Shown in pieces: positions 1 through 29,793 of a stretch of 45,097 nucleotides of DNA (positions are counted from its first letter, which is position 1; each line of letters starts with the position of its first letter). Origin of the DNA: a virus. The position numbers and the translations under genes were made by a program. Location: the IMG/VR virus record IMGVR_UViG_3300025131_000082, positions 1 through 45,097 of that record; one strand, given 5' to 3'. Under the pieces are notes generated by a model, which did no database searches, was not told the origin of the DNA, and saw nothing but the letters and a program-made list of their open reading frames with translations.

Positions 1-217
1 TTTCAAGGAGTTTTTCGATCTGGACGGCAAACTTTTCTTTGGTGAACTGGTCCTCGTGCTGGCCGCAGTAGCGGTCCCCGAGGGCGTCCACCTCGGTGAC
101 GGCGTCCCGCTTACACAGCCGGGGCCGGTTGCCGTTCCGGTTGGTGACGATGGCGCAGCACCCGCCACGCTCTGCGCGAGCGCGACGGGCGGCGAAGAGG
201 GCGAAGCCTCGGCGCAT
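1..217 (-). CDS. Partial zinc-finger-like small protein, runs off left edge
   Basis: Reading leftward from ATG at 217, the frame stays open to the window edge (about 72 codons). Its ATG overlaps the TGA of the upstream gene (TGATG), and AAGGAGG lies 9 bases before it, so coupled translation is very likely. Cysteines occur as a Cys-Cys pair near residue 20, a Cys in LCKRDA and a CGQH motif near residue 51, which suggests a zinc-binding fold, followed by a Lys/Glu-rich helix. Function unknown; the 3' end lies outside the window. It is the second gene of a leftward operon that starts at the operator-covered promoter near 540. Confidence 0.7.
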   Translation of the reverse strand, partial: MRRGFALFAARRARAERGGCCAIVTNRNGNRPRLCKRDAVTEVDALGDRYCGQHEDQFTKEKFAVQIEKLLE

Positions 218-438
218 CAGGAGACCTCCTTCTGAGGGAAGTCGATGCTGGCGCCAGGGAGCAACCCCCTGACGGCTGCCTCGATGGTGGGGTAGGTCTG
301 CTCGCCCCATTGCCGGTATCGTTGCGGGTTGCCAGGGATGTCGGCTACAAACACCCAACGCTCGAAGCCGAGGCGGCGGATGGTTCCCACCTTGTGGCCG
401 TTGAGGCTCACGGTGGCGCGGCTGCATTGTTTTCTCAT
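217..438 (-). CDS. Small hypothetical protein, first gene of left-edge leftward operon
   Basis: The product is 73 residues from ATG 438, which has CAGGAG six bases upstream. An in-frame ATG at 471 would add 11 residues but has a poorer ribosome site, so 438 is preferred. The sequence is a compact mix of beta and alpha segments (VSLNGHKVGTIRRLG, then WVFVADIPG) and ends in a Pro/Gly-rich tail. No family is recognised. It overlaps the next leftward gene by one base. The promoter and palindromic operator at 517-545 lie just upstream, which points to early, regulator-controlled expression. Confidence 0.65.
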   Translation of the reverse strand: MRKQCSRATVSLNGHKVGTIRRLGFERWVFVADIPGNPQRYRQWGEQTYPTIEAAVRGLLPGASIDFPQKEVS

Positions 439-516
439 CTCAGTCTCCTGTGTTAAGGTAAATTCGGTCATGGTATTCTCTGGGTTCCTTGGGTGGGCGT
501 TGCTGTCTCTGTCTAA

Positions 517-545
517 GATGTAGCAACGATGCTACACACTTTCAA
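517..545 (-). promoter_or_regulatory. Leftward promoter with perfect palindromic operator
   Basis: On the minus strand, TTGAAA (545-540) is followed after 17 bases by TACATC (522-517), a weak -10. Between and over these elements lies the perfect palindrome TGTAGCAACGATGCTACA (519-536). The same half-site pattern, TGT-N-GC and GC-N-ACA, occurs at 25069-25142, 30895-30912 and 31510-31527, always overlapping promoter elements. The rest of 472-710 holds an isolated TTGACA at 557-562 with no convincing -10, and a short GC-rich hairpin near 592-608. Those are not called as features. Confidence 0.55.
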
Positions 546-710
546 GGACTAATTTGTTGACAGCGCAAAAAAAATGCCTCAAGCTCCAACCTCGCCCGCG
601 CCGAGGGCGTAAAAACCGGCGGATCGTCTCTCTCACGTCACGAGAGGTCTCGCTTGCAGCGGCGGTTTTGGCTGCGCGATTGACCAACTCAACGTGAGGA
701 AACAACCACC

Positions 711-1787
711 ATGGCAACGACGCAATACGGGGTCAACCACCCCTTAGCCGTCAAAGTCTGGTCTACCAAGTTGATGCGAGAGGCTCTCAAGGAGACTTTC
801 GCGAGCCGGTTCATGGGGAAGACGAAGGACAGCCTGTGCTACGTCAAAGATGAACTGACCAAATCGGCAGGTGATCGGATTACGGTTGGACTGCGTATGC
901 AGTTGACCGGCAGCGGCATCTCGGGTGACGGCACCCTCGAAGGCAACGAGGAAGCTTTGGTCACCTACAATGACAACTTGTTCATCGATCAGTTGCGGCA
1001 CGCCGTCCGAAGCGACGGGCGCATGTCGGAGCAGCGCGTTCCGTTCTCTATCCGCGAGGAGAGCCTGGACGGCTTGCGTGACTGGTGGGCGGATCGCATC
1101 GACAGCGCGTTTTTCAACCAGCTTTGCGGCAACACCGGCCAGACGGACACCCGTTTCACCGGGCTGCAAGCGACCTCGGCCCCGACCAGCGCCAGTGGCA
1201 ACACCCGCATCATCTACGGCCCCCTGGACGCGACCACGGAGAACTCGCTCTCGGCTTCGGAAAGCGGCAGCGCCGACTTCCAGCTTACGATGATCGACAA
1301 GGCCATCGCGATTGCGAAGACGGCCACGCCGCTCATTCGACCGCTGAAGGTCAACGGCCAGTCCAAATACTGCGCCTTCTTGCATCCCTGGCAGGTCTTC
1401 AATCTGCGGACGGATGCCACGGCAGCCCGTGTCACTTGGTACGACACCCAACGGGCGCGTGTCGAGGGCGGCGAGATGGACAACCCGATTTATAACGGGG
1501 CACTCGGTGAATATAACGGTGTGATCTTGCACGAAAGCACCCGCATCCCCACCGCGCCATCGATCACCACCGTGCGTCGAGCGGTCTTCTGCGGCGCCCA
1601 GGCAGCGTGTTTTGCCACGGGCCGCGAAAACCCCAGTGATCAGCAGATGACTTGGGTTGAAGAGCTGTTCGATTATGGCAACCAATTGGGCGTATCCGCC
1701 GGCCTCATCCACGGTCTCAAGAAATCGGTCTACAACTCGACCGACTTCGGGACCATCGTGATGAGTTCCCACGCGGAAAGCCCGTAG
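711..1787 (+). CDS. Major capsid protein, N4-gp56 family (HK97 fold)
   Basis: This 358-residue protein forms the icosahedral shell. It matches the N4-gp56 major capsid family in length and layout. Features seen are an N-terminal segment rich in SxxLMREA-type helices, a central LEGNEEALVTYND segment with the conserved DQLRHAV element, an E-loop-like charged stretch, and a C-terminal region with FCGAQAACFATGRENP and FDYGNQLGVSAGLIHG typical of the family. ATG 711 is preceded by GAGGAAAC. It is followed 17 bases later by a putative decoration gene, and both end at the tandem terminator near 2308. Codon choice leans to CGC/CCG compared with the AGG/CCC-rich genes downstream. Confidence 0.9.
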   Translation: MATTQYGVNHPLAVKVWSTKLMREALKETFASRFMGKTKDSLCYVKDELTKSAGDRITVGLRMQLTGSGISGDGTLEGNEEALVTYNDNLFIDQLRHAVRSDGRMSEQRVPFSIREESLDGLRDWWADRIDSAFFNQLCGNTGQTDTRFTGLQATSAPTSASGNTRIIYGPLDATTENSLSASESGSADFQLTMIDKAIAIAKTATPLIRPLKVNGQSKYCAFLHPWQVFNLRTDATAARVTWYDTQRARVEGGEMDNPIYNGALGEYNGVILHESTRIPTAPSITTVRRAVFCGAQAACFATGRENPSDQQMTWVEELFDYGNQLGVSAGLIHGLKKSVYNSTDFGTIVMSSHAESP

Positions 1788-1804
1788 GATAGAGGAGAAG
1801 TAGC

Positions 1805-2263
1805 ATGACCACGTTCACCGCTTCCCTCCATCAGTCGCAGCCTCGGGAGGTCCACGTTGGCCTTCAAAGCGCATCGAGCAAGCTCACCACCGCCCTGACC
1901 GGCACTGCCGCCAGCACCTTCCTGCTGGCGAAAGTACCTAACGGCGCTCACATCAAAGATTTTCACTTCTTTGCTGATGACGCCGGGGCCAACCAGACGT
2001 GGACCTTGGGCATCCAGAAGCCCGAAGGATCGACCTCTGGCTCGACCACAGTAGACGCCACGGCGTTGCTGGCGGCGACCTCGACCTCGTCGAGCGAGAC
2101 CACCATGCGACCCGCAGGGGGCCTACTCCCGGTCAAGGTGAGCATTTCCGATGAGGCGTTGCCTCGTTGGGCCTGGATCGTTGCAGTCAACGGCGCGGCC
2201 ATCTCCGCTTCTGTGGATATGACCTTCGTTGTCCAGTACGACATGGACGACGACGCCGCCTAG
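1805..2263 (+). CDS. Putative capsid decoration or head-associated protein
   Basis: The 152-residue protein is rich in Thr, Ser and Ala with alternating beta-like segments (for example WTLGIQKPEGS and VDMTFVVQYDMDDD) and an acidic C-terminus. It has no cysteine and no membrane segment. ATG 1805 follows GAGGAGAAG. Its position directly after the capsid gene, its size and its beta-rich composition fit a head decoration or stabilising protein, but this is inferred from context and no family was recognised with certainty. Confidence 0.6.
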   Translation: MTTFTASLHQSQPREVHVGLQSASSKLTTALTGTAASTFLLAKVPNGAHIKDFHFFADDAGANQTWTLGIQKPEGSTSGSTTVDATALLAATSTSSSETTMRPAGGLLPVKVSISDEALPRWAWIVAVNGAAISASVDMTFVVQYDMDDDAA

Positions 2264-2284
2264 CTGCGACACCGAGGAGGAGAC

Positions 2285-2372
2285 CACGTCGCATGACGTG
2301 ACGAGTTGGGGGAGGTGGCGTTCGCGCCTCCCCCCACTCTCTTTTTTGCCCCGCCTGGAGCGGGGTTTTTTT
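2285..2372 (+). terminator. Tandem hairpin terminators after the capsid genes
   Basis: Three hairpins stand in a row. CACGTC/GACGTG (2285-2300) has a GCAT loop. A strong GC-rich stem (2308-2335) is closed by GGCG-TTCG-CGCC with a TTCG tetraloop at 2321-2324, and is followed by CTCTCTTTTTT. CCCCGC/GCGGGG (2349-2365) has loop CTGGA and is followed directly by seven T residues (2366-2372). The last is a classic intrinsic terminator. Together they separate the capsid transcription unit from the modification cassette. Confidence 0.85.
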
Positions 2373-2386
2373 ATGGAGGATGTGTG

Positions 2387-3880
2387 ATGAGGAAGACCGG
2401 CTACAGATACGTCTCGGCAGCCGACAAGTTGGAGGAGGCCAAGGAGCTTCACTCTCGCGGCCTGGAGGCCACGGGGAAGGAGCAGGGCCAGCTTTTGACC
2501 GCCGCCGAGGATACCTACAACATGATCCTCAACAAGAAATTTGGGGAGCCGGTGGTCTTTTACTTCCTGGGCATGCTCTACTGCCAGAAGGGCTACCACG
2601 GCCTGGGCGCCTTCCTCCTCGAAGAGTGCGTCAGGCACATGCCCGAGCAGGGCGATGCCTGGAACAACCTCGGCATCTGCTACCACCGCGAACAGAACCG
2701 CGAGAAGGCCCTTGAGTGCTTCGAGATGGCAGCCTCCCTAGTGCCAGAGGGTGCCGGCGACATCTGGGCCAACGTGGCCAGCCTCTACATCAACATGGGC
2801 CAGCCTGACGAGTGCATCAAGCACGCCAACAAGGCCCTGATCGCTGACCCCGGCAACGCCCTGGCGATGTGGCATAAGGCGCTGGGCATGCTGGAGAAGC
2901 AGGACTGGGCCAACGGCTGGGACATCTACGGCGCTCGCCTGGAGAGGGGTGCCAACTGCCCCATCGCCCTGAGGAACTATTCGGGTGACCCCGAGGCCGT
3001 GACGCCCTGGTGGGATCACGATGCCGGCGCTGGCTTGGTGGTGATCCACGGCGAGCAGGGCCTGGGCGATGAGGTGATGTTCGCCTCTGTCATCCCCCAC
3101 CTCGCGGCCAGCTATGGCTCGACCGAGTTCGTCTTCGAGTGCGCCCCCAATATGCATGGCCTGATGGACCGCAGCTTCGCCGGCATCCCCAACATCACCG
3201 TCCACGGCACGCACGAAGTCGATGGCCACGAGTGGCTCAAGAAGGGCGAGGTGGTCGATGGCAAGATTGCCCTCGGCACGATCCCCAAGACCCTCCGCCG
3301 CAAGAACGAAGACTTCCCCGGCACCCCCTACCTTATCCCTGACCCGAGCATCGCGAAGAGCTTTCGCAAGAGGTTCGACAAGATGGGGCCGAGGCCGAAG
3401 ATCGGCATTGCTTGGCAGGGTGGCGTGCAGCGGACCCGCATCGATCTCCGTTCGATGATGCCAGACACCCTGGTCCCCATTCTGAAGCTGGACGCTGACT
3501 TCATCTCGCTCCAGTACACGAGCGATGCTGGCGACGTTCTGAAGGAGTTCCAGACCGACACCGGCCTCCACATCCACCACTGGAAGAAGGGCGCTGGTGG
3601 GAAGGATATGGAGGCGAAGGCGGCGCTGATCTCGGAGCTTGATCTGGTGGTCTCCGTTTGCCAGACGTGCATTCACATGGCCGGCGCCCTCGGCACCCCG
3701 ACCTGGGTTCTCGTGCCGGCGGCGCCCGCATGGCGGTACGGCGTTGCTGGCGACATGCCCTGGTACAACAGCGTTGAGCTGAAGCGCCAGCAGCCCGGCG
3801 ACCCATGGGACATCCTCGTGGGCAGCGTAGCCTTTGAGCTTGAGCAGTGGCTCCGCGAGCGGAGGGGGAGGGGTGCGTGA
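2387..3880 (+). CDS. TPR-domain glycosyltransferase
   Basis: The 497-residue protein has TPR-type helix pairs in its N-terminal part (about residues 45-170; DAWNNLGICYHREQNREKAL is a textbook repeat). This is followed by a GT-B-like catalytic region with HGEQGLGDEVMF (about 222-233), IGIAWQGG (about 341) and a GT9/heptosyltransferase-like VSVCQTCIHMAGALGTPTW. TPR-linked transferases of this layout usually glycosylate proteins or surface glycans using nucleotide sugars. ATG 2387 is chosen because GGAGGATGTG precedes it and an upstream in-frame start would lie inside the terminator. It is the first gene of a five-gene cassette and overlaps the next gene by one base. Confidence 0.82.
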   Translation: MRKTGYRYVSAADKLEEAKELHSRGLEATGKEQGQLLTAAEDTYNMILNKKFGEPVVFYFLGMLYCQKGYHGLGAFLLEECVRHMPEQGDAWNNLGICYHREQNREKALECFEMAASLVPEGAGDIWANVASLYINMGQPDECIKHANKALIADPGNALAMWHKALGMLEKQDWANGWDIYGARLERGANCPIALRNYSGDPEAVTPWWDHDAGAGLVVIHGEQGLGDEVMFASVIPHLAASYGSTEFVFECAPNMHGLMDRSFAGIPNITVHGTHEVDGHEWLKKGEVVDGKIALGTIPKTLRRKNEDFPGTPYLIPDPSIAKSFRKRFDKMGPRPKIGIAWQGGVQRTRIDLRSMMPDTLVPILKLDADFISLQYTSDAGDVLKEFQTDTGLHIHHWKKGAGGKDMEAKAALISELDLVVSVCQTCIHMAGALGTPTWVLVPAAPAWRYGVAGDMPWYNSVELKRQQPGDPWDILVGSVAFELEQWLRERRGRGA

Positions 3881-4320
3881 TGGATGACTTAGCGATTATG
3901 AAAGACCTTCTTCAATACGCGGAGGAGCATGGGGGGTGCCTTCGCAGGAAGATAGCTTGTTTCATCATGGCAGATGATGGCGAGCGCATCGGGCGGGGCT
4001 GGAATGGCCCTCCCGGCATCCGCTGCCAGGACAAGCCCTGCCCCGGTGCTAGTGTCCCTGCGGGCGAGGGTGCCTACCGAGAGGTGGAGTGTCATGGCGT
4101 CCATGCCGAGGTGCGCGCCCTCATGGACGCCTCTCTCTATGCGGATGAGGCCCACTCCATTTTCTGCACCAAGGCCCCCTGCCAGCGGTGCGCCAAGATG
4201 CTGCTTCACGCCACCCCCGACACCGCCCGTCTCGTCTTCGCCGTCTGGCCCAACGATAAGTCGGGCCTCGAAGCCTGGAGCGATGCCGGGCGCGAATACA
4301 AATGCATTGGAGATGCCTGA
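3880..4320 (+). CDS. Zinc-dependent cytidine/dCMP-deaminase-fold protein
   Basis: The 146-residue protein carries the deaminase zinc signature: CHGVHAEV with the His-Ala-Glu triad near residue 75 and PCQRC near residue 99. The Glu would act as proton shuttle, and one His and two Cys would bind zinc. This layout fits dCMP or related nucleotide deaminases, including the extra N-terminal Cys/His region around residues 40-72. Its ATG overlaps the TGA of the glycosyltransferase gene. Conversion of dCMP to dUMP is the known family activity. In this cassette it could instead act on a modified base or nucleotide-sugar moiety, which is inference. Confidence 0.8.
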   Translation: MDDLAIMKDLLQYAEEHGGCLRRKIACFIMADDGERIGRGWNGPPGIRCQDKPCPGASVPAGEGAYREVECHGVHAEVRALMDASLYADEAHSIFCTKAPCQRCAKMLLHATPDTARLVFAVWPNDKSGLEAWSDAGREYKCIGDA

Positions 4321-4862
4321 TGCTAATCAGTGAGGAATACCAGCGCCTCAACGCCGAGATGCACGAGGCGAACGAGGACTACGGCACCTCGGGTCACGAG
4401 AGCATCAAGAAAATTCTTGAGCTAATGTCGCTCTCGGGCGCCTCGACCTTGCTCGATTACGGTTGCGGGAAGGGCACCCTCAAGAGGTCTATCGAGCTAT
4501 CTGGCTTCCCTGAGATTGCCGGCGGCATGCGTGAGTATGACCCGGCCATCCCTGGCAAGGAGGCCCCGCCAGAGCCGGCGGATGTGGTGGTCTGCTCTGA
4601 CGTGCTTGAGCATGTCGAGCCTGACTGCCTCGCGGAGGTTCTGGAGGACTTGGAGAGGGTGACCACGGTCGCCATCTATCTCCTCGTCTCGACGCAGCCG
4701 GCCATCAAGTTCCTACCTGATGGGCGGAACCCGCACCTTATCATTGAGCCGCCGGCATGGTGGCTTCCCAAGATCATGGCGCACTTCGACCTCATGTGGT
4801 TCGAGCGCGGAAAGAGGGGGACATTCGAATGCATAGCGATGCCGTTCAGCGCGTCTACATAG
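4320..4862 (+). CDS. Class I SAM-dependent methyltransferase
   Basis: The 180-residue protein has motif I LLDYGCGKGTL (about residues 44-54) and a motif II/IV-like VVCSDVLEHVE (about 90-100), typical of Rossmann-fold methyltransferases acting on small molecules or glycans. There is no DNA-methyltransferase (D/N/S)PPY motif, so a base-specific restriction-type enzyme is unlikely. The start overlaps the previous stop (TGATG), and its 3' end overlaps the next gene by 34 bases. Substrate unknown. The genomic setting suggests a sugar, cofactor or peptide in the same pathway as the flanking transferases. Confidence 0.8.
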   Translation: MLISEEYQRLNAEMHEANEDYGTSGHESIKKILELMSLSGASTLLDYGCGKGTLKRSIELSGFPEIAGGMREYDPAIPGKEAPPEPADVVVCSDVLEHVEPDCLAEVLEDLERVTTVAIYLLVSTQPAIKFLPDGRNPHLIIEPPAWWLPKIMAHFDLMWFERGKRGTFECIAMPFSAST

Positions 4863-5551
4863 GCTACGACAGCCGCGAGCATGACGCCTTCGAGGTGTGC
4901 AAGCACACCCTGCTCAAGCACGCCACAGTGCCTCTGCTGGTCGAGCGCGTCGATCAACGTGCCCTCCGCCACGCCGGCCTCTATCGCCGGGCGCCCCTTC
5001 CTGGGACGTGGACCGACAGCGTGGATGGCAAGTCGTTCTCGACCGAGTTCTCCTTCACGCGCTTCCTCGTGCCGGCGCTTTGCCAGTACGAAGGGTGGGC
5101 CTTGTTCATGGATTGTGACTTCCTCTGGCGGCGTGATGTGAGGCACCTCTTCGACCTGATCGAGGAGAACCAGAACAAATCGGCCTTGGTTGTTCATCAC
5201 AACTATGACCCCAAGGACACGATCAAAATGGATGGCCGCGAGCAGACGGTCTACAGCAATAAAAACTGGTCGAGCCTGATGCTGCTCAACTGCGCGGCCT
5301 GCTGGGAATTGACGCCTGACGTGGTCAACACCAAGCCCGGCATCTGGCTGCATACTTTTCGCTGGGCGGGGATGACCTACAAGCTGGGGGCACTCGATGA
5401 GACTTGGAATTGGCTGCCGGGGCACAGCAGCGAGGGCATCAATCCTGCGGCAGTCCATTTTACCCGTGGCATCCCCTCGATGCCCGGCTACGAGAACGAA
5501 CCTTACGCCGACGAATGGTTCGCGGCGCTTAAAGAGGCGAGAGCAAGATGA
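4829..5551 (+). CDS. Putative glycosyltransferase (GT-A/GT8-like)
   Basis: The 240-residue protein opens with VYIGYDSREHDAFEVC and has MDCDFLWRRDV near residues 92-102. The Asp-Cys-Asp resembles the metal-binding DxD of GT-A nucleotide-sugar transferases. A later stretch, GINPAAVHFTRGIPS, resembles the C-terminal His-containing end of GT8-type enzymes. ATG 4829 is preceded by AAAGAGGGGGAC and lies inside the end of the methyltransferase gene. A longer in-frame start at 4757 would lie deeper in that gene and has no ribosome site. The last four bases overlap the radical SAM gene. Confidence 0.7.
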   Translation: MHSDAVQRVYIGYDSREHDAFEVCKHTLLKHATVPLLVERVDQRALRHAGLYRRAPLPGTWTDSVDGKSFSTEFSFTRFLVPALCQYEGWALFMDCDFLWRRDVRHLFDLIEENQNKSALVVHHNYDPKDTIKMDGREQTVYSNKNWSSLMLLNCAACWELTPDVVNTKPGIWLHTFRWAGMTYKLGALDETWNWLPGHSSEGINPAAVHFTRGIPSMPGYENEPYADEWFAALKEARAR

Positions 5552-6489
5552 CGATTACAGAACGCATCGACGCCATCACCGGCATCGACCCCGAGTATCT
5601 TTCCGTCACCCCGCCCTGCCCTCGGTCAGTCAAGATTGAGCTGACGGGGCGGTGCAATTTCATGTGCGCCTTCTGCGCCCGCTCGCAGAACCTTCGAGAG
5701 CAGAAGGATATGGACCGGGGCATGTTCGAGGACTTGCTCTCTGAGATGAGGCAGGCCGGCGTCGAGGAGATCGGTCTTTTTTATCTCGGGGAAAGCATGA
5801 TGGTCCCCTGGCTTGCCGAGGCCGTCGAGTTCGCGACGACGGTCGGCTTCCCATACGTCTTCCTGACCACCAACGGCTCGCTCTCCAACCCGGCCAAGGT
5901 CGAGGCTTGCATGGAGGCGGGCCTTAGCTCGCTCAAGTTCAGCCTCAACTATGCCGATGCAGATCAGTTTACCGAGATCGCTCAGGTCAAGCAGGCGCTC
6001 TTCTACAGGATGATCGAGAACATCAAATCGGCCCACGCGGTCAGGGAAGGCGGCGGATATGATTGCGGCCTCTACGCCAGCTACATCAGCTACGACGGCG
6101 ACCAGGGCGAAAAGATGCAGGCCATGATCAAGGAGCTTTCGCCCTACCTCGATGAAATTTACGAGCTTCCGCTGTACAATCAGGCCGACCTCGTGACCGA
6201 TGAGGAGAAGGCCCGAGGATGGAAGCCCTCCGCCGGCAACCGAGGCCGTGCCGGCAATCTTCGAGACCCCCTCCCCTGCTGGGCCACCCTGACTGAGGGC
6301 CACATCACTTGGGATGGAAAGTTGGCGGCATGCTGCTTCGATCACAACGATGACTTCACCATGGCCGACCTGACCCAGGTCAGCTTCATGGAGGGCTGGC
6401 ACTCGCTGAAATTCCAGCAGCTCCGAAAGGCCAACCTCGCGAAGGATGTCACCGGCACGCCGTGCGAGCGTTGTGTGGTCGGAGGCTAG
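5548..6489 (+). CDS. Radical SAM enzyme with SPASM-like C-terminal domain
   Basis: The 313-residue protein has CNFMCAFC (Cys 36, 40, 43), the CxxxCxxC motif that binds the SAM-cleaving 4Fe-4S cluster, followed by the expected barrel elements (LYLGESMMVPW, LTTNGSL). The C-terminal third has cysteines in PCWATLTEG, AACCFDH and the terminal PCERC, matching SPASM/twitch domains that bind auxiliary Fe-S clusters. SPASM enzymes modify peptides, sugars or other substrates, and the substrate here cannot be read from sequence. It is the last gene of the cassette (ATGA overlap at its start). A separate promoter follows directly. Confidence 0.85.
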   Translation: MTITERIDAITGIDPEYLSVTPPCPRSVKIELTGRCNFMCAFCARSQNLREQKDMDRGMFEDLLSEMRQAGVEEIGLFYLGESMMVPWLAEAVEFATTVGFPYVFLTTNGSLSNPAKVEACMEAGLSSLKFSLNYADADQFTEIAQVKQALFYRMIENIKSAHAVREGGGYDCGLYASYISYDGDQGEKMQAMIKELSPYLDEIYELPLYNQADLVTDEEKARGWKPSAGNRGRAGNLRDPLPCWATLTEGHITWDGKLAACCFDHNDDFTMADLTQVSFMEGWHSLKFQQLRKANLAKDVTGTPCERCVVGG

Positions 6490-6490
6490 T

Positions 6491-6520
6491 TTGCCGATGC
6501 ACCCCTGAAGGTGGTAGAAT
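6491..6520 (+). promoter_or_regulatory. Sigma70-like promoter at start of the virion region
   Basis: TTGCCG (6491-6496) is followed after 18 bases by TAGAAT (6515-6520). The expected transcript start falls at or within one base of the ATG at 6526, so the mRNA may be leaderless or nearly so. It lies just after the radical SAM stop codon and would restart transcription into the virion genes. Confidence 0.45.
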
Positions 6521-6525
6521 GAGGC

Positions 6526-6849
6526 ATGGAAGACCTCGCTGCCATCAAGGGCATCCTCCCCATCGGGGCAGCCATTGTCACTCTGGTCATGGCCTGGGCC
6601 GGCATGAAGTATGTCGGGAAGGAAAACGCGGCCAAGATCGCAGCCCAGGATGAGAAGTTCGAGGAGGCCATCGCGACCCTCCATGCGCGGGTCGAAGGGC
6701 TGGCGAAGCAAATTCGTGACCAGTGGGCAAAAGCAGATCAGGCCAGTCTTGCGACCCAGAAATTCGATACGACGATCAATTACATCAAGCGAGACATCGA
6801 CCGCCTCTTGGAGGAGGGCCGCTATCAGCGGCGCCGAGGCGGTGGGTGA
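6526..6849 (+). CDS. Single-TM coiled-coil protein
   Basis: The 107-residue protein has an N-terminal hydrophobic helix (about residues 10-30, ILPIGAAIVTLVMAWAGM) followed by a long charged coiled coil ending in RRRGGG. The layout is like that of small phage membrane-anchored proteins, including lysis helpers, but no specific family is recognised. Similar TM-plus-coil proteins are encoded at 19607 and 21005. No spaced Shine-Dalgarno is present. The promoter -10 ends five bases before the ATG. Confidence 0.65.
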   Translation: MEDLAAIKGILPIGAAIVTLVMAWAGMKYVGKENAAKIAAQDEKFEEAIATLHARVEGLAKQIRDQWAKADQASLATQKFDTTINYIKRDIDRLLEEGRYQRRRGGG

Positions 6850-6874
6850 CACGCCTCCCTCGATAGGGTAGGCT
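6846..6874 (+). promoter_or_regulatory. Candidate late promoter, TGACA/CCTCC class
   Basis: GTGACA (6846-6851) is followed after 17 bases by TAGGCT (6869-6874). The -35 is followed by a CCTCCC tract. The same arrangement recurs at 7939-7967 and 40136-40164, which raises confidence despite the weak -10 here. Confidence 0.4.
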
Positions 6875-6893
6875 GACGGGGAAGGAGACTGCC

Positions 6894-7523
6894 ATGGCTT
6901 TCGGATTGCCTCGAATGGTTGCCGGCGCGGGAGGGGGCCTTTGGAATGGCGCCCTTGGCGCTGCCCCGGCTGCGCCTCCCCCAGCTCCAGGGCTTGACAT
7001 TGACCCGGCTGACCTTGCCGGCCTCTTCCCCAAGCCCTCTCCGTCAAGCCTCCCTCCGTATGCCCCCGCCAACCCCTTTGGTCGGCTCCCTGGCGACCTT
7101 TCGATGGATGTGCGAACCTATCGTGACCCCCTTACTGGTTACATCCACTATGAGAACGGTCTCGACCCTACGCCCCCGCCCCCTGGCTGGAAGCCCGGCC
7201 AACCATCAACTGGCAGCCCTGTGTGGTCGGGAACTCCCGGCGCCACTCCCAACCTTATGCCTTCATTCGGCAGCCCCGTATCGAAGGGCTTGGAGATGCT
7301 CCCTGACGGTCGATATTGGCGCCCTGAGGGGCCGGGTGATGTGCCGTCGAGTGGGAACATGGTGGATATGACTAAGCTCTCTGGCTTCCTTACCCCTGGC
7401 CCCAGGCCCCCTATGGGCGCAGCCCGACCAATGCCATTCCCAGGCCCCGGCCTACCTGCCCCATGCCGGCGCCCCAGCCCACCAATGCCATGGAAGAGCC
7501 TCGAAGGCTCCGCCGGCCCATGA
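6894..7523 (+). CDS. Proline-rich virion-type protein with a duplicated module
   Basis: The 209-residue protein is very rich in Pro, Gly and Ala, low in charge, and probably disordered. ATG 6894 follows GAAGGAGAC. A 22-residue stretch coded by 7299-7364 (beginning LPDGRYWRPEGPGD) matches a stretch near the end of the 722-residue protein at 42915 in 20 of 22 residues, so the two share a module. No known domain. A structural or ejection-associated role is inferred from location and from the shared module. Confidence 0.55.
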   Translation: MAFGLPRMVAGAGGGLWNGALGAAPAAPPPAPGLDIDPADLAGLFPKPSPSSLPPYAPANPFGRLPGDLSMDVRTYRDPLTGYIHYENGLDPTPPPPGWKPGQPSTGSPVWSGTPGATPNLMPSFGSPVSKGLEMLPDGRYWRPEGPGDVPSSGNMVDMTKLSGFLTPGPRPPMGAARPMPFPGPGLPAPCRRPSPPMPWKSLEGSAGP

Positions 7524-7564
7524 GTGCGGCGGATAACTGGGCGCTGAATATTGCTGGGGACTAG
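7520..7564 (+). CDS. 14-codon microORF between two genes
   Basis: ATG 7520 overlaps the preceding TGA, and the frame runs 14 codons to TAG at 7562-7564, three bases before the next ATG. It may be a coupling peptide that carries ribosomes across the junction, or chance. No ribosome site is evident other than the coupling. Confidence 0.2.
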   Translation: MSAADNWALNIAGD

Positions 7565-7566
7565 TG

Positions 7567-7932
7567 ATGGCACACCAACCTCGACAACTTCCCATGATGG
7601 TTGCCGGCGCCTCCCCGGTGCAGCCTGTCGGCCTAGATATGAACCCCCGAGAGCCTTCGGGTGGCGAGCAACGCCTTGCCCCCATGTTCGAGAGCCTCTC
7701 GCATCGGATATTTGATCGGATATTTGACAGGCGCCCCGGCCCCGACATGATGGAGGAGTTCTACGCCAAGGAGCGCAGCTTCAGGGATATGATTGCCGAG
7801 ATGGGCAGGCGGTACGCTCCTCTCTTGGGCGCTGACGATGACCCCAGGATGAGGCAGATCAAGAAATACCTCTTCCAGAACGAGATGCGGAAGAGGTTAA
7901 TGAGGCCTCCCTCAGGCGAGTTCGACATCTGA
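7567..7932 (+). CDS. Hypothetical phage protein with RIFD tandem duplication
   Basis: The 121-residue protein has a Pro-rich N-terminus, then a helical, Arg/Met-rich C-terminal half (RSFRDMIAEMGRRYAPLL, KKYLFQNEMRKRL). An exact 12-base tandem duplication (7703-7726) produces RIFDRIFD. An in-frame GTG at 7564 is possible, but ATG 7567 is preferred. Function unknown. It sits in the run of small genes before the tail adaptor, and a strong late-type promoter follows it. Confidence 0.55.
   Translation: MAHQPRQLPMMVAGASPVQPVGLDMNPREPSGGEQRLAPMFESLSHRIFDRIFDRRPGPDMMEEFYAKERSFRDMIAEMGRRYAPLLGADDDPRMRQIKKYLFQNEMRKRLMRPPSGEFDI
7703..7726 (+). repeat. 12-bp exact tandem duplication
   Basis: ATCGGATATTTG occurs twice head to tail at 7703-7714 and 7715-7726 inside the coding sequence, keeping the frame and doubling the residues (R)IFD. 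It looks like a recent replication-slippage event. Confidence 0.9.
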
Positions 7933-7938
7933 GCCGGG

Positions 7939-7967
7939 GTGACAACCCCTCCCGCTTCAATTACAAT
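7939..7967 (+). promoter_or_regulatory. Strong late-type promoter
   Basis: GTGACA (7939-7944) and TACAAT (7962-7967) are 17 bases apart, each matching five of six consensus positions. It lies in a 55-base gap between genes, with the next ATG at 7988 preceded by GAGGTGCGAT. The CCTCCC tract after the -35 is shared with the promoters at 6846 and 40136. Confidence 0.65.
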
Positions 7968-7987
7968 ACGGATGATAGAGGTGCGAT

Positions 7988-8515
7988 ATGAGCAGACGTT
8001 CGCAGATAGCGGCTAACCCAGGTTTGCAGGAGAGTACGGAACGAGCGACCCATCCAATCCCGCCCCCCGCCGGCAATCCAACCGTGGAGGGGGTGCCCTC
8101 GCCAAGGCGGCACCACTTCTACCGTGCCCAGAGGGTGGCTGATCAGGAGACCATCGCGGCCAACGAACGCCGTATCGCAGAACTCGAAGCCGAGCTTAAC
8201 ACCCGCCGCGCTCAAGCGGCACAACACGAGGAAGAGACCCATGCAGAACGACAGCATGCGAGTGAAGAGTTACAAAGCCGGGCACACCGGGGACGTGAAG
8301 AACACGCCGGGGGGCCGGGAGAAGTACACGGCGACACCAGCGTCAGCGGTTCAGGGCCGGGCCGGGGACGCGAAGACGACCACGGACAACGCCGGGAAGA
8401 GCAAGAGCCGGCCCAGCAAGTCGGGCTACTAGTCTGCCCTGAGTGCGGGCAGGCCTGCAAAAACAAGGCGGGTCTGTCCGCCCACAAGCGGTACAAGCAC
8501 CCACCTCAACAGTGA
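7988..8515 (+). CDS. Coiled-coil protein with C-terminal C2H2 zinc finger
   Basis: The 175-residue protein has a basic N-terminus, a heptad-like helix (about residues 55-95, ERRIAELEAELNTRRAQAA), a low-complexity charged linker, and a C-terminal CPECGQACKNKAGLSAHKR finger with the final His in YKH, a good C2H2 motif. ATG 7988 has GAGGTG upstream. The linker (codons over 8240-8430) has unusually low GC at third positions (36 of 64), because the same DNA carries a second reading frame at 8241-8432 with the usual codon bias. It may therefore be an overprinted segment. Confidence 0.65.
   Translation: MSRRSQIAANPGLQESTERATHPIPPPAGNPTVEGVPSPRRHHFYRAQRVADQETIAANERRIAELEAELNTRRAQAAQHEEETHAERQHASEELQSRAHRGREEHAGGPGEVHGDTSVSGSGPGRGREDDHGQRREEQEPAQQVGLLVCPECGQACKNKAGLSAHKRYKHPPQQ
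8241..8432 (+). CDS. Nested overlapping gene: small basic protein
   Basis: The 63-residue frame lies entirely inside the 7988-8515 gene in another phase. ATG 8241 is preceded by GAGGAAGAGACCC. By my count 56 of 63 codons end in G or C, the pattern of true genes in this genome, against 36 of 64 for the enclosing frame over the same DNA. The product is rich in Lys, Thr, Gly and Ala (SYKAGHTGDVKNTPGG) and probably disordered. Either this is the older gene and the outer frame was extended across it, or both are used. Function unknown. Confidence 0.5.
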   Translation: MQNDSMRVKSYKAGHTGDVKNTPGGREKYTATPASAVQGRAGDAKTTTDNAGKSKSRPSKSGY

Positions 8516-8527
8516 CGGAGGTGACGC

Positions 8528-8839
8528 ATGGCTGGCAATCCCCCAACGGCAGCCGAATACATCCCAGTTGGGGCAGTCTATCGAGAGACTGACCCCAGCC
8601 TGAAGGTCGAGGCCCCCGAGGCGCTCCGAATGGACGCCCTTGGGTACTTGCAAACGACCGCGCAAGGGCTGCCTCTCTCTATTGCTATGGGCGCAACGCC
8701 GGGCGCCAGCATCGTCAATAAATTCGGCTTCAATGAGGCCATCTCAAATACTGAGATCACCCTCTGGTTCCAGGGGGGCCTTTACACTTATCCGACTGAC
8801 GCCGCCGGCAAGATTGATATGCTGCTGTTCGACAATTAG
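8528..8839 (+). CDS. Hypothetical virion-region protein
   Basis: The 103-residue protein is moderately hydrophobic, with beta-type segments toward the C-terminus (ITLWFQGGLYTYP, KIDMLLFDN). ATG 8528 follows GACGGAGGTGACGC. No family recognised. It lies just before the adaptor gene and is probably transcribed with it from the 7939 promoter. Confidence 0.6.
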   Translation: MAGNPPTAAEYIPVGAVYRETDPSLKVEAPEALRMDALGYLQTTAQGLPLSIAMGATPGASIVNKFGFNEAISNTEITLWFQGGLYTYPTDAAGKIDMLLFDN

Positions 8840-8848
8840 GAAGCCGCC

Positions 8849-9511
8849 ATGACTTACCTCGCAATGCGAACTCGCATCCAGAGTGAACTGGTCCGCACCG
8901 ATATCGACGGCAGGATCAATGAGGCTATCATCTCGGCCATCAGGCACTGGGAGCGGGAGCGGTTCTTCTTCAATGAGGCGACGACAACTTTCGTGACGGT
9001 CGCTGACCAGGAGCAGTATACCGAGAGCGATGGCGTCCCCACGGGGCTGGTGAAAATTGATGAACTCACTGTCGATGTCAACTCGACCACCTACCCCCTC
9101 ACGCCTCGAACTTATTCCTTCATCGAGAACATCAAGAACAGCACGAGCTACACCGGCTTCCCTTATTCTTATGCCTACTACCAAGAAAGTTTTTGGCCCT
9201 ACCCGATACCAAATGGCTCCTACACGCTGAACCTCAGCTACATCCAGCGGCTGGCCGAGGTCACTCTTAGCGCAACGGACGCTGCCACTAATGCCTGGAT
9301 GGTCGAGGCGGAAGACCTCATTCGCCTGCGGGCGAAGAGCATCATTCGCATTGATGTGCTGGAGCAGGAGAGGGCCAAGGCCGAGGCGGCGATGATGGCG
9401 CAAAAGGGCAGCACGGCGCTGTCCATAATGGAAGACAGCGTCCTCCAGGGCATCCAGGGCGAAGTCACCAAGCGGGTCCAGACGGGCCGCGTGCAGCCGA
9501 CGCAGTTCTGA
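8849..9511 (+). CDS. Head-tail adaptor, P22 gp4-like
   Basis: The 220-residue protein fits the P22 gp4 tail accessory factor type, which binds under the portal and begins tail assembly. Features are an N-terminal helix pair typical of adaptors (MRTRIQSELVRTDIDGRINE, then ISAIRHWERERFFFNE), a central beta part with the PLTPRTYSFIEN element, and a long C-terminal helix (EAEDLIRLRAKSIIRIDVLE). It stands directly upstream of the gp10-like hub gene, as in P22-type clusters. The start has AGGAAGCCGCC upstream. Confidence 0.72.
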   Translation: MTYLAMRTRIQSELVRTDIDGRINEAIISAIRHWERERFFFNEATTTFVTVADQEQYTESDGVPTGLVKIDELTVDVNSTTYPLTPRTYSFIENIKNSTSYTGFPYSYAYYQESFWPYPIPNGSYTLNLSYIQRLAEVTLSATDAATNAWMVEAEDLIRLRAKSIIRIDVLEQERAKAEAAMMAQKGSTALSIMEDSVLQGIQGEVTKRVQTGRVQPTQF

Positions 9512-9512
9512 T

Positions 9513-11069
9513 ATGCCCACCTTCCCCTCAGACGGCTCGATCATCGAGTTCGCGGCGTGGCTGCCTGATCAGCCGGCGTTAAACTCGCCTGGGGCCACGG
9601 TAGCGAGCAATTGCCGCCCCTCCGCCATCGGTTATAGACCGATGCCTGACATCAAGCCCTTCACCACGGCAGCCCTCGATAGCTTCGCCCAGGGCGCCAT
9701 CAGTGTCACGGCCATTGATGGCGAGGTTACGTCCTACGTTGGGGATGCCGCCAAGCTCTACGACATCACCTCCGCAGCCGCGACTGATGTCTCGGTTGCC
9801 GGCGGATACTCGACAGTTGCGGACGGTATATGGGACTTTGCCAAGTGGGCAAATACGGTGATAGCCACAAACCTTTCCGACCCCGTTCAGACAATTACCA
9901 TTGCCGGCGCGAACTTTGCCAACCTCATATCCTCGACGGATACGCCCAAGGCCAAGTTCGTTTCAATTGATGATAATGGCTTTGTCATCCTCGGAAACAT
10001 CTCCGATGAAAGCGGGAGTGCCCCGACAAGGGTTCGATGGTCGGCGCAGAATGATCCGACTGACTTTGATGAAAGTGCGGCAACTCTTTCGGACAAGCAA
10101 GACCTCCAGGGCGAGGGTGGTGATGTTCAGGGGCTGCTTTACGGCGGAGATTTCACCACGGTCTTCAGGGAAAATTCTATACATCGCATGCAGTTTGTGG
10201 GACCGCCTTTGATTTTTCAAATCCCCCAGGTCGTACAGAATTTGGGCTTGAGAACGCCCGGCGCTGCGGCGGCATTTGGCAGGATGCACTACTTCCTTGC
10301 CAGCAGTGGATTTTACGTTTTCGATGGAGCTACCGCTCAAAACATCGGGTCGGAGCAGGTGGATCGCTTGTTCTGGGACACGGAGGGCGGCGCGAATACC
10401 GATGCGGTTGATGTCGTAAATATTCACCGCGTTAGGGCGACCATTGACCCTGACAACCAGCAAGTCTTCTTTGCGTATCCCACGGCTTCAGCGCCGGCAA
10501 ATGCCTGTGATCGCATCCTCTGCTACGACTGGACCGTCCAGAGGTGGAGCCTGATTTCGGTCGATACCCAATTGCTATTCCGCCACCTCAGCGAAGGGTA
10601 TACCCTTGAGGGACTAGACAGCGTAAGCACGTCAATCGATGCTCTTCCCTCCGCCGCAGCCGAGCTGTCCTTGGACAGCAAGGCGTGGATGGGTGGCGCC
10701 ATCAAGCTGGGCGCTGTTGACACCACGAACAAGATGGCGACGTTCGAGGGCAGCAATCTCGCGGCGGTGATGGCGACCGCCGAGATGAACCTCGCGGCCT
10801 CGGGCGGTTCGCCGGGGTATCGCTCGAAGCTGACCGAGGTCGTTTCCCTGGTCGATGGCGGGACGCCCACGATGAGGATCGGCTACCGCAACCTCCCAGG
10901 TGACACCGTCACCTACACGGCAGCCGTCGCGCAGAACGCCTCGGGCTTCCACCCATTCCTGATCGACAGCAGATATTTCCGCGCCGAGGTCACCGTGCCG
11001 GCGGGGTCATCGTGGACCCATGCCCAAGGCGTCAATGGCGTCGAGTACGCCGTCACAACGAAGAACTGA
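9513..11069 (+). CDS. Tail hub / packaged-DNA stabilisation protein, P22 gp10-like
   Basis: The 518-residue protein has repeated beta-blade-like stretches (AKFVSIDDNGFVILGNIS, GRMHYFLASSGFYVFDGA, NQQVFFAYP) and an N-terminus rich in Pro/Asn (LPDQPALNSPGATVASNCRP). This layout fits phage stabilisation proteins of the P22 gp10 group, which close the portal channel after packaging. The length is close to that of the family. It follows the gp4-like adaptor by one base, and its stop overlaps the next ATG. Confidence 0.75.
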   Translation: MPTFPSDGSIIEFAAWLPDQPALNSPGATVASNCRPSAIGYRPMPDIKPFTTAALDSFAQGAISVTAIDGEVTSYVGDAAKLYDITSAAATDVSVAGGYSTVADGIWDFAKWANTVIATNLSDPVQTITIAGANFANLISSTDTPKAKFVSIDDNGFVILGNISDESGSAPTRVRWSAQNDPTDFDESAATLSDKQDLQGEGGDVQGLLYGGDFTTVFRENSIHRMQFVGPPLIFQIPQVVQNLGLRTPGAAAAFGRMHYFLASSGFYVFDGATAQNIGSEQVDRLFWDTEGGANTDAVDVVNIHRVRATIDPDNQQVFFAYPTASAPANACDRILCYDWTVQRWSLISVDTQLLFRHLSEGYTLEGLDSVSTSIDALPSAAAELSLDSKAWMGGAIKLGAVDTTNKMATFEGSNLAAVMATAEMNLAASGGSPGYRSKLTEVVSLVDGGTPTMRIGYRNLPGDTVTYTAAVAQNASGFHPFLIDSRYFRAEVTVPAGSSWTHAQGVNGVEYAVTTKN

Positions 11070-11401
11070 TGGCCTTCATCGGAAGGGAAAATCTCCCCCT
11101 CACATGGTATGACCTCGTCCAGATCACTCGCAAGATCGTGACGATGGTCAATGGCATCACGAACGAGGGCTGGTCGAATGCCAAGGGGTCAGTGACCCTT
11201 ACGGCCTCGGCCACCACAACGACCATTACAAATATCAACATCTCGACAGAGAGCGTTTTCAACTTCGAGCCAAAGACCGAGAGCGCGGCCCTCTGCCTCC
11301 CCTCCCTCTATGTGTCGAGCAAAACAAATGGAAGCGCAGTTATCACACACAACTCCCGAGAAGCCACCGACCGAGATTTCGATTACTCCTTCCAAGGATG
11401 A
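11069..11401 (+). CDS. Small structural-type hypothetical protein
   Basis: The 110-residue product starts at ATG 11069, overlapping the stop of the hub gene. It has an N-terminal helical part (WYDLVQITRKIVTMVNGI) and Thr/Ser/Asn-rich beta segments (TLTASATTTTITNINI). The region suggests a virion or tail protein. No family recognised. Confidence 0.55.
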   Translation: MAFIGRENLPLTWYDLVQITRKIVTMVNGITNEGWSNAKGSVTLTASATTTTITNINISTESVFNFEPKTESAALCLPSLYVSSKTNGSAVITHNSREATDRDFDYSFQG

Positions 11402-11804
11402 TTGGGCCTTCGGTCATGTAGTCGATTTTTCGATCTGGCCCCTGATCGAGGATGACATCTCGGCAGCCCTCGACCGCTCCGAGGGGCGCCTTTGGTCCGA
11501 GGACATCCTGGCAAAGCTCCAGGCCGGCATGATGCAGCTTTGGCTTGGCGCCGATGCTGAGGGGGTCAAGCTGACCATCGTGACGGAGATCACCCAGTGG
11601 CCCCGCCGCAAGGCCCTCTCCATCGTCATCTGTACCGGGTCCGACCGGGGGCGGTGGCTCCATCACACGGCTGACTTGGAGGCCTTTGCAAGAGGCCACG
11701 GATGCGATATGATTGAGGCCTGGGCACGGCCAGGATGGGAGCGTGTGACGGGATGGAAACGCACCCACGTTCTTCTTGAACACCCGTTGGAGGGTGACGC
11801 ATGA
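11328..11804 (+). CDS. Putative GNAT-like internal virion protein (T7 gp13-like)
   Basis: The product is about 158 residues. The core (WLGADAEGVKLTIVTEITQW, then KALSIVICTGSD, then GCDMIEAWARPGWERV) resembles the acetyltransferase-like fold of small internal proteins such as T7 gp13, including the terminal GW-R-HVLLEHPLEG segment. Such proteins assist ejection or morphogenesis and are usually catalytically inactive. The start is unsure: ATG 11310 and ATG 11328 both lie inside the preceding gene and neither has a clear ribosome site. The stop overlaps the next ATG (ATGA). Confidence 0.6.
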   Translation: MEAQLSHTTPEKPPTEISITPSKDDWAFGHVVDFSIWPLIEDDISAALDRSEGRLWSEDILAKLQAGMMQLWLGADAEGVKLTIVTEITQWPRRKALSIVICTGSDRGRWLHHTADLEAFARGHGCDMIEAWARPGWERVTGWKRTHVLLEHPLEGDA

Positions 11805-12883
11805 GCCGTCAAACTGGTACGCAGCAGCAGGTCAGCACCTCGGAGCCTTGGGCGCCGCAGCAGAAACACCTCGAAGATATATTCGGGTCCGCGAAGGGCC
11901 TCTACGGCAGCGGAGGCCCCAGCTACTACGGCGGCGACACCGTGGTGCCGTTCGCGGCGGATACCCAGAAGGCCATCGATCTTACTCGAAGTCGAGCCTT
12001 GGGTGGCAGCCCCCTCGAAACGGCTGCCCAAGCATCTGCCTTCGGCACCCTGACGGGCGACCCCACGGCCAACCCGGCCTTCGGCTACCTGGGCGACATT
12101 GCCTCGGGCAACACCGGCCCGACTGCGGCCAACCGCTATCTGGCTGGCACGGCTGCCGGCGACAACCTCACCGGCAACCCCTACCTCGACGCGATGTGGG
12201 GCAACGCCTCGCGGAAGATCACCGATGCCTACAAGGAAAGCACCCTCCCCGGCATCAACTCGATGTTCTCGATGGCTGGCCGCTTTGGCTCCGAGGCGGG
12301 CCATCAGGCTGCTGTCGAGCGTGCCAACGAAACTCTGGCGGATAGTCTGGCTGGCACGGCTGCTGGCATCTACGGTGGCGAGTATGGTCAGGAGCGCCAG
12401 CGGATGATGGACGCCGCCGGCACTATCGACGCCTCCGAGGCGGGGCAGCAGCAGCGACAGATGTCGGCTGCCGGCGCCCTCGGGGGGATGTACGACACGG
12501 CGACGGGTCGGCAGCTCCAGACGGCCCAGCTCGCGCCCACCCTTGCGGGCATCGACTACACGAACATCGGAAAATTGGCGGGCATAGGCGGCGCATACGA
12601 AGACCTCCAGGCCCGGCAGCAGGCCGATGCCCAGCAGCGCCACGCCTTCGGGCAGGAGCGCCCCTACGACGCCCTCAACCGCTACCTCGCGGCTGTCCAG
12701 GGCGGCTATGGTGGCACGGGCACCACGGTCAGCCCGCTCTACTCGAACCCGGCTGCCGGTGCAGTCGGTGGCGGTCTGGCCGGTGCCTCGATGGCGCAGT
12801 TGTTGCAGAACCAATTGCCCAAGGATGGCTACTGGGGCGCCGGCATGGCTGGCGCTGGTGCCCTCCTCGGCGCTTTCGCATAG
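11801..12883 (+). CDS. Ejection/internal virion protein
   Basis: The 360-residue protein is dominated by Ala, Gly and Gln (for example QQRQMSAAGALGGMYD) with repeated amphipathic helices and hydrophobic Gly/Ala stretches near the C-terminus (AGAVGGGLAGASMAQLL). This composition is characteristic of podovirus DNA-transfer/ejection proteins. A short motif, GINSMFSMAGRFGSEAG, resembles segments conserved among such proteins. It is the first of three consecutive large genes of this type and starts at an ATGA overlap. Confidence 0.65.
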   Translation: MSRQTGTQQQVSTSEPWAPQQKHLEDIFGSAKGLYGSGGPSYYGGDTVVPFAADTQKAIDLTRSRALGGSPLETAAQASAFGTLTGDPTANPAFGYLGDIASGNTGPTAANRYLAGTAAGDNLTGNPYLDAMWGNASRKITDAYKESTLPGINSMFSMAGRFGSEAGHQAAVERANETLADSLAGTAAGIYGGEYGQERQRMMDAAGTIDASEAGQQQRQMSAAGALGGMYDTATGRQLQTAQLAPTLAGIDYTNIGKLAGIGGAYEDLQARQQADAQQRHAFGQERPYDALNRYLAAVQGGYGGTGTTVSPLYSNPAAGAVGGGLAGASMAQLLQNQLPKDGYWGAGMAGAGALLGAFA

Positions 12884-26273: not shown

Positions 26274-27026
26274 TTGACCGACCTTCCCTTCCTACCTTTA
26301 TGGACCGACGCCTATCTGGCGGACACCTCCCATCTCACTCTCGAAGAGCATGGGGCCTACCTCAAAATCCTTATGATTTCCTGGCGCTCACCGGACTGCC
26401 AGATGGATGCCACGGACGAGCGCATCGCCGTCATGCTAGGCATCACAAGAAGGCGATGGCGAGAGAAGTTACGCCCGGTTCTGGAACCCTTTTTCTCGAT
26501 CTCTGGCACAGTCTGGTGCCAAAAAAGATTACAAAATGAGTTCATAGATCGCTCAAAACGTAGGACCAAACATGCCGCAAAGTCATCCAAGGGTGGGAAG
26601 GCTAAGGCATTGAAAAACAACAAGACCGTTCTGCCACAGGCACCTTCCGGGCAGGCCCCAGGCAGTGCCCAACCTGTAGCAGCCAGAGCCAGAGCCATAG
26701 CCAGAGAAGAAGATGATCCTTCGGATCATCGCGCCGACACGCCATTCGGCCACGAGCTTCAGGCCTCGACTTGGGAGCTTGGGGCGAAAATCTTTGGCCG
26801 GGGTGCAATGGTCGGTAAAGCCCTTAAGGCCGGGATGGTCGAGGAGGATATCGTCAGAGCCCTGAACGACTGTGCCGGCAAGACCAACCCATCGGCCTAC
26901 TTCGGTGCCATCATCCGAGACTACGAGGGTCCAACCCCAAAGCTCTCGGCCACTGATCAGGAGGAGATTGCCAGGAAGGCGCAGAGCATGCGAGAGTTGG
27001 AAGATGGGGAGGGCCTTTTTGGATGA
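26274..27026 (+). CDS. YdaU/DUF1376-like replication protein, TTG start
   Basis: The 250-residue protein begins PFLPLWTDAYLADTSHLTLE then EHGAYLKILMISWRSPDCQM, the DUF1376 (YdaU) domain seen in phage replication-initiation proteins. A basic, Ala/Pro-rich linker (about residues 93-150) joins it to a C-terminal helical part. TTG 26274 follows CAGGGGGCACC, and no other start keeps the domain intact. The linker DNA holds an 8-bp hairpin (26712-26730). It lies two genes before the primase-helicase. Confidence 0.7.
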   Translation: MTDLPFLPLWTDAYLADTSHLTLEEHGAYLKILMISWRSPDCQMDATDERIAVMLGITRRRWREKLRPVLEPFFSISGTVWCQKRLQNEFIDRSKRRTKHAAKSSKGGKAKALKNNKTVLPQAPSGQAPGSAQPVAARARAIAREEDDPSDHRADTPFGHELQASTWELGAKIFGRGAMVGKALKAGMVEEDIVRALNDCAGKTNPSAYFGAIIRDYEGPTPKLSATDQEEIARKAQSMRELEDGEGLFG

Positions 27027-27051
27027 ATGTGACAGGTGAGGAGGGGATGTG

Positions 27052-27309
27052 ATGCCCACCATTATTGATCGCTTTCGTGTCTTGCGCGTCGAACCCAATA
27101 AGCATGTGACGTGGTCGGTTGGTGACATGGTGATGCGTAGGTTCGTCGATGAGTATGGGCACCAACCGCCGAAGGTGTTGAGGCCAAAAACCAACGCGGG
27201 CGGATCGCATTGCTTTGCACTCTACCCGCCGGAATGGGTGCCGGTCATCGACCGCATCATTTTAGCCCACAGCACAGAGGCGCAGCGCCAGGGGGAGCTT
27301 TTCGGATGA
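27052..27309 (+). CDS. Hypothetical protein before the primase-helicase
   Basis: The 85-residue protein is mixed alpha/beta (IIDRFRVLRVEPNKHVTWSV, then SHCFALYPPEWVPVIDRIIL). ATG 27052 follows GAGGAGGGGATGTG. The stop overlaps the start of the primase-helicase gene (ATGA), which suggests a helper role in replication. No family recognised. Confidence 0.55.
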   Translation: MPTIIDRFRVLRVEPNKHVTWSVGDMVMRRFVDEYGHQPPKVLRPKTNAGGSHCFALYPPEWVPVIDRIILAHSTEAQRQGELFG

Positions 27310-29123: not shown

Positions 29124-29133
29124 GGATGATGTG

Positions 29134-29235
29134 ATGACTGCTCTCAGTGTGATCGTGGCAATCGCCCTTATGGGCATGATAGCGGGGATGGCGATATTCG
29201 CCGTCGCCTTAATTTACAGAATGTGGAGAGGATGA
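29134..29235 (+). CDS. 33-residue single-TM peptide
   Basis: ATG 29134 is preceded by AAGGATGATGTG. The product is almost wholly one hydrophobic helix ([20 protein letters not shown] and onward) with a basic end (YRMWRG), as in small membrane peptides. It lies between the helicase and SSB genes. The role is unknown; tiny phage membrane peptides in early operons often act on host envelope or transport proteins. Confidence 0.5.
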
Positions 29236-29239
29236 AGCG

Positions 29240-29788: not shown

Positions 29789-29793
29789 GGTAT

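Follow-up and report, generated by a model that had tools for sequence, protein, structure and literature searches.

The virus record IMGVR_UViG_3300025131_000082 of IMG/VR, analyzed at its full length of 45,097 bases and referred to as the window below, carries a cassette of five genes on its plus strand at positions 2387-6489. In 5' to 3' order these encode a tetratricopeptide repeat (TPR) protein with a C-terminal glycosyltransferase (GT) domain of the GT-B type (TPR-GT), a zinc deaminase, an S-adenosylmethionine (SAM)-dependent methyltransferase (MT), a GT8-like transferase, and a radical SAM/SPASM enzyme. With a probability of about three in four, we consider the cassette to be a virion-glycosylation module, by which an outer capsid protein would be glycosylated in the cytoplasm and the sugar then extended and methylated. 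TPR-GT, MT and the GT8-like transferase form a widespread phage core, to which the radical SAM enzyme is a common addition; the deaminase is rare. The set recurs at this position in uncultured phages, well over 100 of them.

All five reading frames are open and in frame (2387-3880, 3880-4320, 4320-4862, 4829-5551, and 5548-6489). The joints between successive genes are -1, -1, -34, and -4 bases, which reproduces the coordinates and the overlaps of 1 to 34 bases reported in an initial annotation made from the sequence alone. Its placement of the cassette inside the structural region was confirmed as well, the genes lying between the capsid and cement genes on one side and the tail-adaptor genes on the other. 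A purine-rich, ribosome-site-like sequence precedes every start. GC content at third codon positions is 0.72-0.86, and the codon-position composition resembles that of the adjacent structural genes. Since each gene is retained as a protein in relatives, with 25-74% identity, chance open reading frames are excluded and the five genes are real. An Rfam scan of positions 1-12000 gave zero matches.

A conserved core behind the capsid gene

IMG/VR was scanned with the capsid protein, from which the best 80 loci were taken, with TPR-GT (best 80 of at least 594 confirmed stretches), and with MT (best 80 of at least 595). In most of the 80 capsid-scan loci TPR-GT, MT and the GT8-like gene follow the capsid gene, usually in this order, until the tail adaptor is reached. 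Across a tree of the capsid proteins, 60 of 74 scorable loci carry the cassette and about four gains or losses suffice, which fits an old cassette with few losses or regains. The core trio was complete in 48 of 73 loci found by TPR-GT alone and in 37 of 71 found by MT alone. With a single exception, in the 136 distinct loci that contain both TPR-GT and a major capsid gene, TPR-GT begins at most 1.5 kb downstream of the latter; the median gap is 580 bp, the size of one small gene. This includes 28 loci with a different capsid family, PHROG 1328 instead of PHROG 334. At the gene level, phage-encoded GTs linked to structural genes, as in phage virion glycosylation, are therefore present.

Of 77 phage loci with relatives of the radical SAM gene, 60 have one or more core genes nearby, versus 15 of 80 loci from bacterial assemblies; some of the bacterial set, such as L123 and L134, may in fact be phage-derived. 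Absence of conserved co-occurrence in related phages had been named in the initial annotation as a refuting outcome. Co-occurrence holds strongly for the core trio and partly for the radical SAM enzyme, but not for the deaminase. It is highly improbable that the cassette is a set of unrelated morons which gathered at one permissive insertion site behind the capsid gene. Although the content of the slot varies and includes HNH genes, cupin-like, protease-like and other GT genes, the trio recurs jointly in two capsid backbones, parts of it also adjoin terminase genes, and the radical SAM gene keeps company with core genes in phages far more often than in bacterial assemblies. By eye, slot occupants in relatives were a cupin-like protein, other GTs, methyltransferases, and a trypsin-like protease (L072:13291-13782; L044; L064; L078:6926-7528).

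The trio is also carried by podovirus MW202512.1 from Manatee Spring. Here, as in the IMG/VR relatives, TPR-GT, MT and the GT8-like gene occupy the same slot in the same order as in the window; deaminase and radical SAM matches are absent from its cassette, and its annotations are unrelated (fkbM, galT-like). In three cultured relatives (KLEP18-1, Mae-JY35, RHph_Y1_10) the cassette is missing, while portal, capsid, the small gene and the adaptor are all retained. Because these phages retain the remaining order, the module appears as a dispensable decoration in a fixed slot. Such a dispensable and mosaic cassette could also serve to modify non-virion proteins of host or phage inside the cell, e.g. 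by disarming a defence, and TPR-OGT enzymes can take many substrates. We regard this as improbable, as a location after the capsid gene points to late expression alongside structural proteins and anti-defence genes usually reside in early regions.

More distant members of the families occur in cultured phages. MT-family genes lie near structural genes in the Caulobacter phages CcrColossus, C1 and CcrSC, which additionally have the GT8-like family, as well as immediately behind the coat gene of Roseobacter phage CRP-9 and within a GT block between head genes in Tetraselmis viridis virus S20. In all five the other neighbors differ (e.g. sialyltransferase-like GTs), and no match to the TPR-GT of the window was found in them. 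The S20 block (record positions 26950-33219) comprises sialyltransferase-like, GT and MT genes between the head genes and a head-closure gene.

Predicted activities of the cassette proteins

The first core gene (P0001, 2387..3880, plus strand) matches TPR_2 of Pfam at 3.1e-15, and TPRs are present in all 42 members of its family. The initial annotation had ascribed TPRs to both transferases; they are confined to this one. An AlphaFold2 model built from 42 sequences (predicted local distance difference test, pLDDT, 94.5) shows helical repeats followed by an alternating strand-helix fold. Its top PDB matches in Foldseek were SPINDLY (1.3e-12) and OGT (6e-10), both with probability 1.00, and all top PDB matches are TPR protein O-glycosyltransferases. 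Among viral models it matches family 9 transferases. A GEQGxGDE motif at residues 222-229 is conserved, which we take to resemble the GD motif of that family. With N-terminal TPRs fused to a C-terminal GT-B domain, TPR-GT displays the architecture of OGT and FlmG and is predicted to be a protein O-glycosyltransferase.

MT (P0003, 4320..4862, plus strand) is a class I SAM-dependent methyltransferase (Methyltransf_23, 2e-7 in Pfam) with LDYGxG and DGRN motifs conserved across 26 sequences; it is probably a sugar O-methyltransferase. The third core gene (P0004, 4829..5551, plus strand) encodes a GT8-like GT-A glycosyltransferase, recognized through its family alignment and profile. The window protein had no Pfam match of its own, and Glyco_transf_8 was matched by 15 of 29 aligned family members (best 3.6e-8). 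D97, H210 and G214 are invariant and D95 is kept in at least 90% of the members, providing the DxD motif and the C-terminal metal-binding histidine (H210) of this group. In a profile search against the PDB, WbbM was the best match (E 4e-4), and a GT8 enzyme was also matched.

No cassette protein contains a membrane segment, the maximal KD19 value being 1.39, which is what a soluble pathway would lead one to expect. This bears on a host surface glycan (lipopolysaccharide or capsule) as the target, proposed in the initial annotation, whose modification during infection would block superinfection or alter the receptor. Clusters for bacterial surface polysaccharides often contain GT8-like and GT9-like transferases as well as MTs, seroconversion genes are known from phages, and the WbbM match of the GT8-like profile points in the same direction. 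Nevertheless, this target is unlikely. The cassette lacks a flippase and a bactoprenol transferase and encodes no membrane protein, which disfavors a surface-polysaccharide route; neither hydrophobicity nor Pfam families of a Gtr-type seroconversion cluster were found among its proteins. Furthermore, the predicted TPR and GT-B layout of the first enzyme is that of protein glycosyltransferases, and the genes hold a fixed position at the late head genes, away from morons or lysogeny genes.

For virion glycosylation, the activities, acceptor, sugars and order of steps, as well as any benefit to the phage, are inferred as follows. In the host cytoplasm the TPR domain would bind a head protein soon after its synthesis, with the product of the cement gene upstream as the first candidate and the major capsid protein as the second. 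The GT-B domain would then place a first sugar on serine or threonine, much as in FlmG, where substrate binding falls to the TPR half and sugar addition to the GT half. The GT8-like transferase may add a second sugar, and MT may O-methylate or cap the glycan. In this phage the radical SAM/SPASM enzyme may introduce a further change in the sugar (oxidation, epimerization, or C-C/C-S chemistry), and the deaminase may work on the nucleotide side, unless it is a passenger. The capsid would thereby acquire a coat of modified glycan. A virion protein was one of the targets named in the initial annotation, and it is supported by the close linkage to the capsid gene, by a predicted fold that resembles OGT, and by a neighbor whose predicted fold resembles cement proteins.

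The radical SAM/SPASM gene (P0005, 5548..6489, plus strand) matches Radical_SAM at 6.6e-12 and SPASM at 3.6e-10 (Pfam). Its CxxxCxxC motif (C36, C40, C43) and a C-terminal cysteine cluster are typical of the group, with C244, C262, C263, C306 and C309 invariant as well. The protein fits no named NCBIfam equivalog (best 65 bits versus a cut-off of 380), and profile matches in the PDB (BtrN, MoaA, PqqE, DesII) are confined to the common core. Tentatively, this enzyme may remodel a capsid-borne sugar, or the peptide to which it is attached, alongside a capsid-dedicated TPR-type O-glycosyltransferase; we consider this possible but rather doubtful. To our knowledge, a radical-made virion glycan is a post-translational chemistry known from no virus.

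The family had 254 confirmed stretches in bacterial genome assemblies and 151 in phage contigs. Betaproteobacterial relatives on genome contigs (L084-L163) are 50-54% identical to the phage enzyme and adjoin genes that, as named from sequence, are of the cbb3 oxidase, Fnr/Crp, HemN and nitrate reductase type. These neighbors were considered as a guide to the substrate and gave none. One Magnetococcales and one Rhodospirillales assembly (L100:5792-12019 and L106:616-6531) have TPR-GT41, TPR-sulfotransferase or MT genes next to the radical SAM gene, and these loci are possibly a cellular counterpart of the cassette.

The deaminase (P0002, 3880..4320, plus strand) belongs to the dCMP deaminase superfamily, as indicated by dCMP_cyt_deam_1 (3.5e-11 in Pfam) and the zinc motifs H75-A-E77 and P100-C101..C104 (PCxxC). 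It also matches the dCMP deaminase PHROG (9.6e-15) and the deoxycytidylate deaminase 4p9c in the PDB (6.6e-6). Among the fetched loci it was confined to the lineage of the window itself, L004 (62%) and L215 (38%). The initial annotation named a nucleotide or base precursor as a further possible target and took this enzyme to point to a nucleotide-linked intermediate; the cassette would then make a modified nucleotide or decorate the phage DNA, with the deaminase supplying a nucleotide intermediate. Glycosylated phage DNA is known, and dCMP deaminases are the closest relatives of the protein, yet we regard this as very unlikely. Nearly all cassettes are devoid of the deaminase, which stands outside the conserved set, and the TPR-OGT architecture works on proteins. 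Base hydroxymethylases, thymidylate-synthase-like and other base-hypermodifying enzymes were absent from the cassette and from ten other window proteins scanned, which disfavors a DNA route.

Neighboring structural genes and the candidate acceptor

The constant upstream anchor of the cassette is the major capsid gene (711..1787, plus strand; PHROG 334, 2.4e-75; 80 relatives). It is followed by a gene for a putative capsid cement or decoration protein (1805..2263, plus strand), the candidate glycan acceptor. Its AlphaFold model is all-beta with a pLDDT of 73, and the best PDB matches in Foldseek are capsid chains, namely chain H of cyanophage Pam1 (1.8e-5) and chain J of Ralstonia phage GP4 (1.4e-4), with template modeling (TM) scores of 0.57-0.70. 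The head of phage GP4 is decorated with an Ig-like cement protein (540 copies), whose trimers lie on its outer surface (PMC9698820). Because the predicted fold likens the window protein to this type of cement, it would be an exposed and abundant acceptor. Its content of serine and threonine hardly differs between cassette-bearing (0.21) and cassette-free (0.20) relatives.

Several observations weigh against glycosylation of an outer capsid protein by this cassette. The C-terminal 300 residues of TPR-GT gave no listed Pfam glycosyltransferase match in the window protein or in 41 relatives, and Glyco_transf_41 was absent for P0001 and among 25 families of the 42 members (E 0.01). The likeness of this domain to OGT and family 9 comes from the model, whose whole-chain TM score with SPINDLY and OGT is low (about 0.3), as is expected because the TPR lengths differ. 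The TPR part and the cement protein co-vary weakly (partial Mantel r 0.17, p 0.006, n=47), and since the GT part behaves alike, mere linkage could explain it. One clade without the cassette retains the usual cement family, hence the cement protein has no need of the cassette. In a third arrangement the cassette genes lie directly before terminase and portal, and in the Caulobacter phages a related GT-MT pair follows the tail genes, so that the acceptor could differ. The selection of the best 80 in each scan also favors close relatives. In view of the weak co-variation and the cassette-free clade, cement, capsid and tail proteins are all candidate acceptors. Replacement of the cement gene upon loss of the cassette, which had seemed possible in one locus (L015), was rejected as a strict linkage by the same clade.

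Between the cement gene and the cassette, two terminator-like hairpins with T-runs were found in a sequence scan of the plus strand (2308-2334 and 2348-2366), in agreement with the tandem terminators of the initial annotation. The number of hairpins in the region shows no excess over shuffles. Such hairpins recur in the equivalent gap of 20 of 44 relatives, versus 0.3 expected from shuffling and 0 of 44 in a within-gene control. They probably attenuate read-through, which would result in abundant capsid and cement mRNA and scarce enzymes. The promoter proposed downstream (6491-6520) was not upheld, its 9 out of 12 matches in a sigma-70 scan being no better than chance.

About five small genes separate the cassette from the constant downstream anchor, a tail adaptor-type gene (8849..9511, plus strand) syntenic with the annotated tail adaptor of Paracoccus phage KLEP18-1. 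Next to it lies a virion structural gene (9513..11069, plus strand; PHROG 3287), the relative of which in MW202512 is annotated as phage stabilization protein. Two putative structural proteins (7284-7436 and the 3' part of 42915-45083) share a 51%-identical segment (LPDGRYWR..EGPGDV..SSGNMV); one of them follows the cassette and the other the portal gene.

Relation to known glycosylation systems

Virion glycosylation and TPR-OGT enzymes are each already known. FlmG of Caulobacter crescentus, a TPR and GT-B protein, glycosylates flagellins in the cytoplasm, its TPR half binding the flagellin (PMC7591256). By architecture TPR-GT is like FlmG, being soluble with N-terminal TPRs and a C-terminal GT-B domain, and the proposed process would share with it that O-glycosylation takes place in the cytoplasm and that the substrate, bound by the TPRs, is a building block of a large surface assembly. 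Unlike the FlmG system, the cassette is phage-borne beside capsid genes, lacks pseudaminic-acid genes, and includes a GT8-like transferase, MT, and often a radical SAM enzyme. OGT and SPINDLY, which have the GT41 architecture, are the best structural matches and likewise combine TPRs with GT-B. In contrast to them, TPR-GT has about 13% identity, no GT sequence match, and a GT domain that is nearer to family 9-like GTs among viral models.

In mycobacteriophages, phage-encoded GTs glycosylate the capsid or tail-tube protein (Freeman et al. 2023, as cited in excerpts of PMC12619734 and PMC11256854). Virion glycans are thus established for these phages. In these excerpts the GT set differs from the cassette and, in Maravista, is reported to lie close to the genome's 3' end; a TPR-GT, a fixed head slot, or a radical SAM enzyme are not mentioned in them. 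The open-access literature searched gave no account of a capsid-linked TPR-OGT module with methyl and radical-SAM tailoring, although papers elsewhere may exist. This agrees with the initial view that the cassette is not a named system.

Glycosylated virions have so far been shown in a few mycobacteriophages. If our interpretation is true, a large set of short-tailed environmental phages with at least two capsid families bears an OGT-like module dedicated to protein glycosylation and locked to the capsid gene, and sugar coats on capsids would be common rather than exceptional. The module would also offer a compact model for substrate choice guided by TPRs and a setting in which the function of a radical SAM/SPASM family may be learned.

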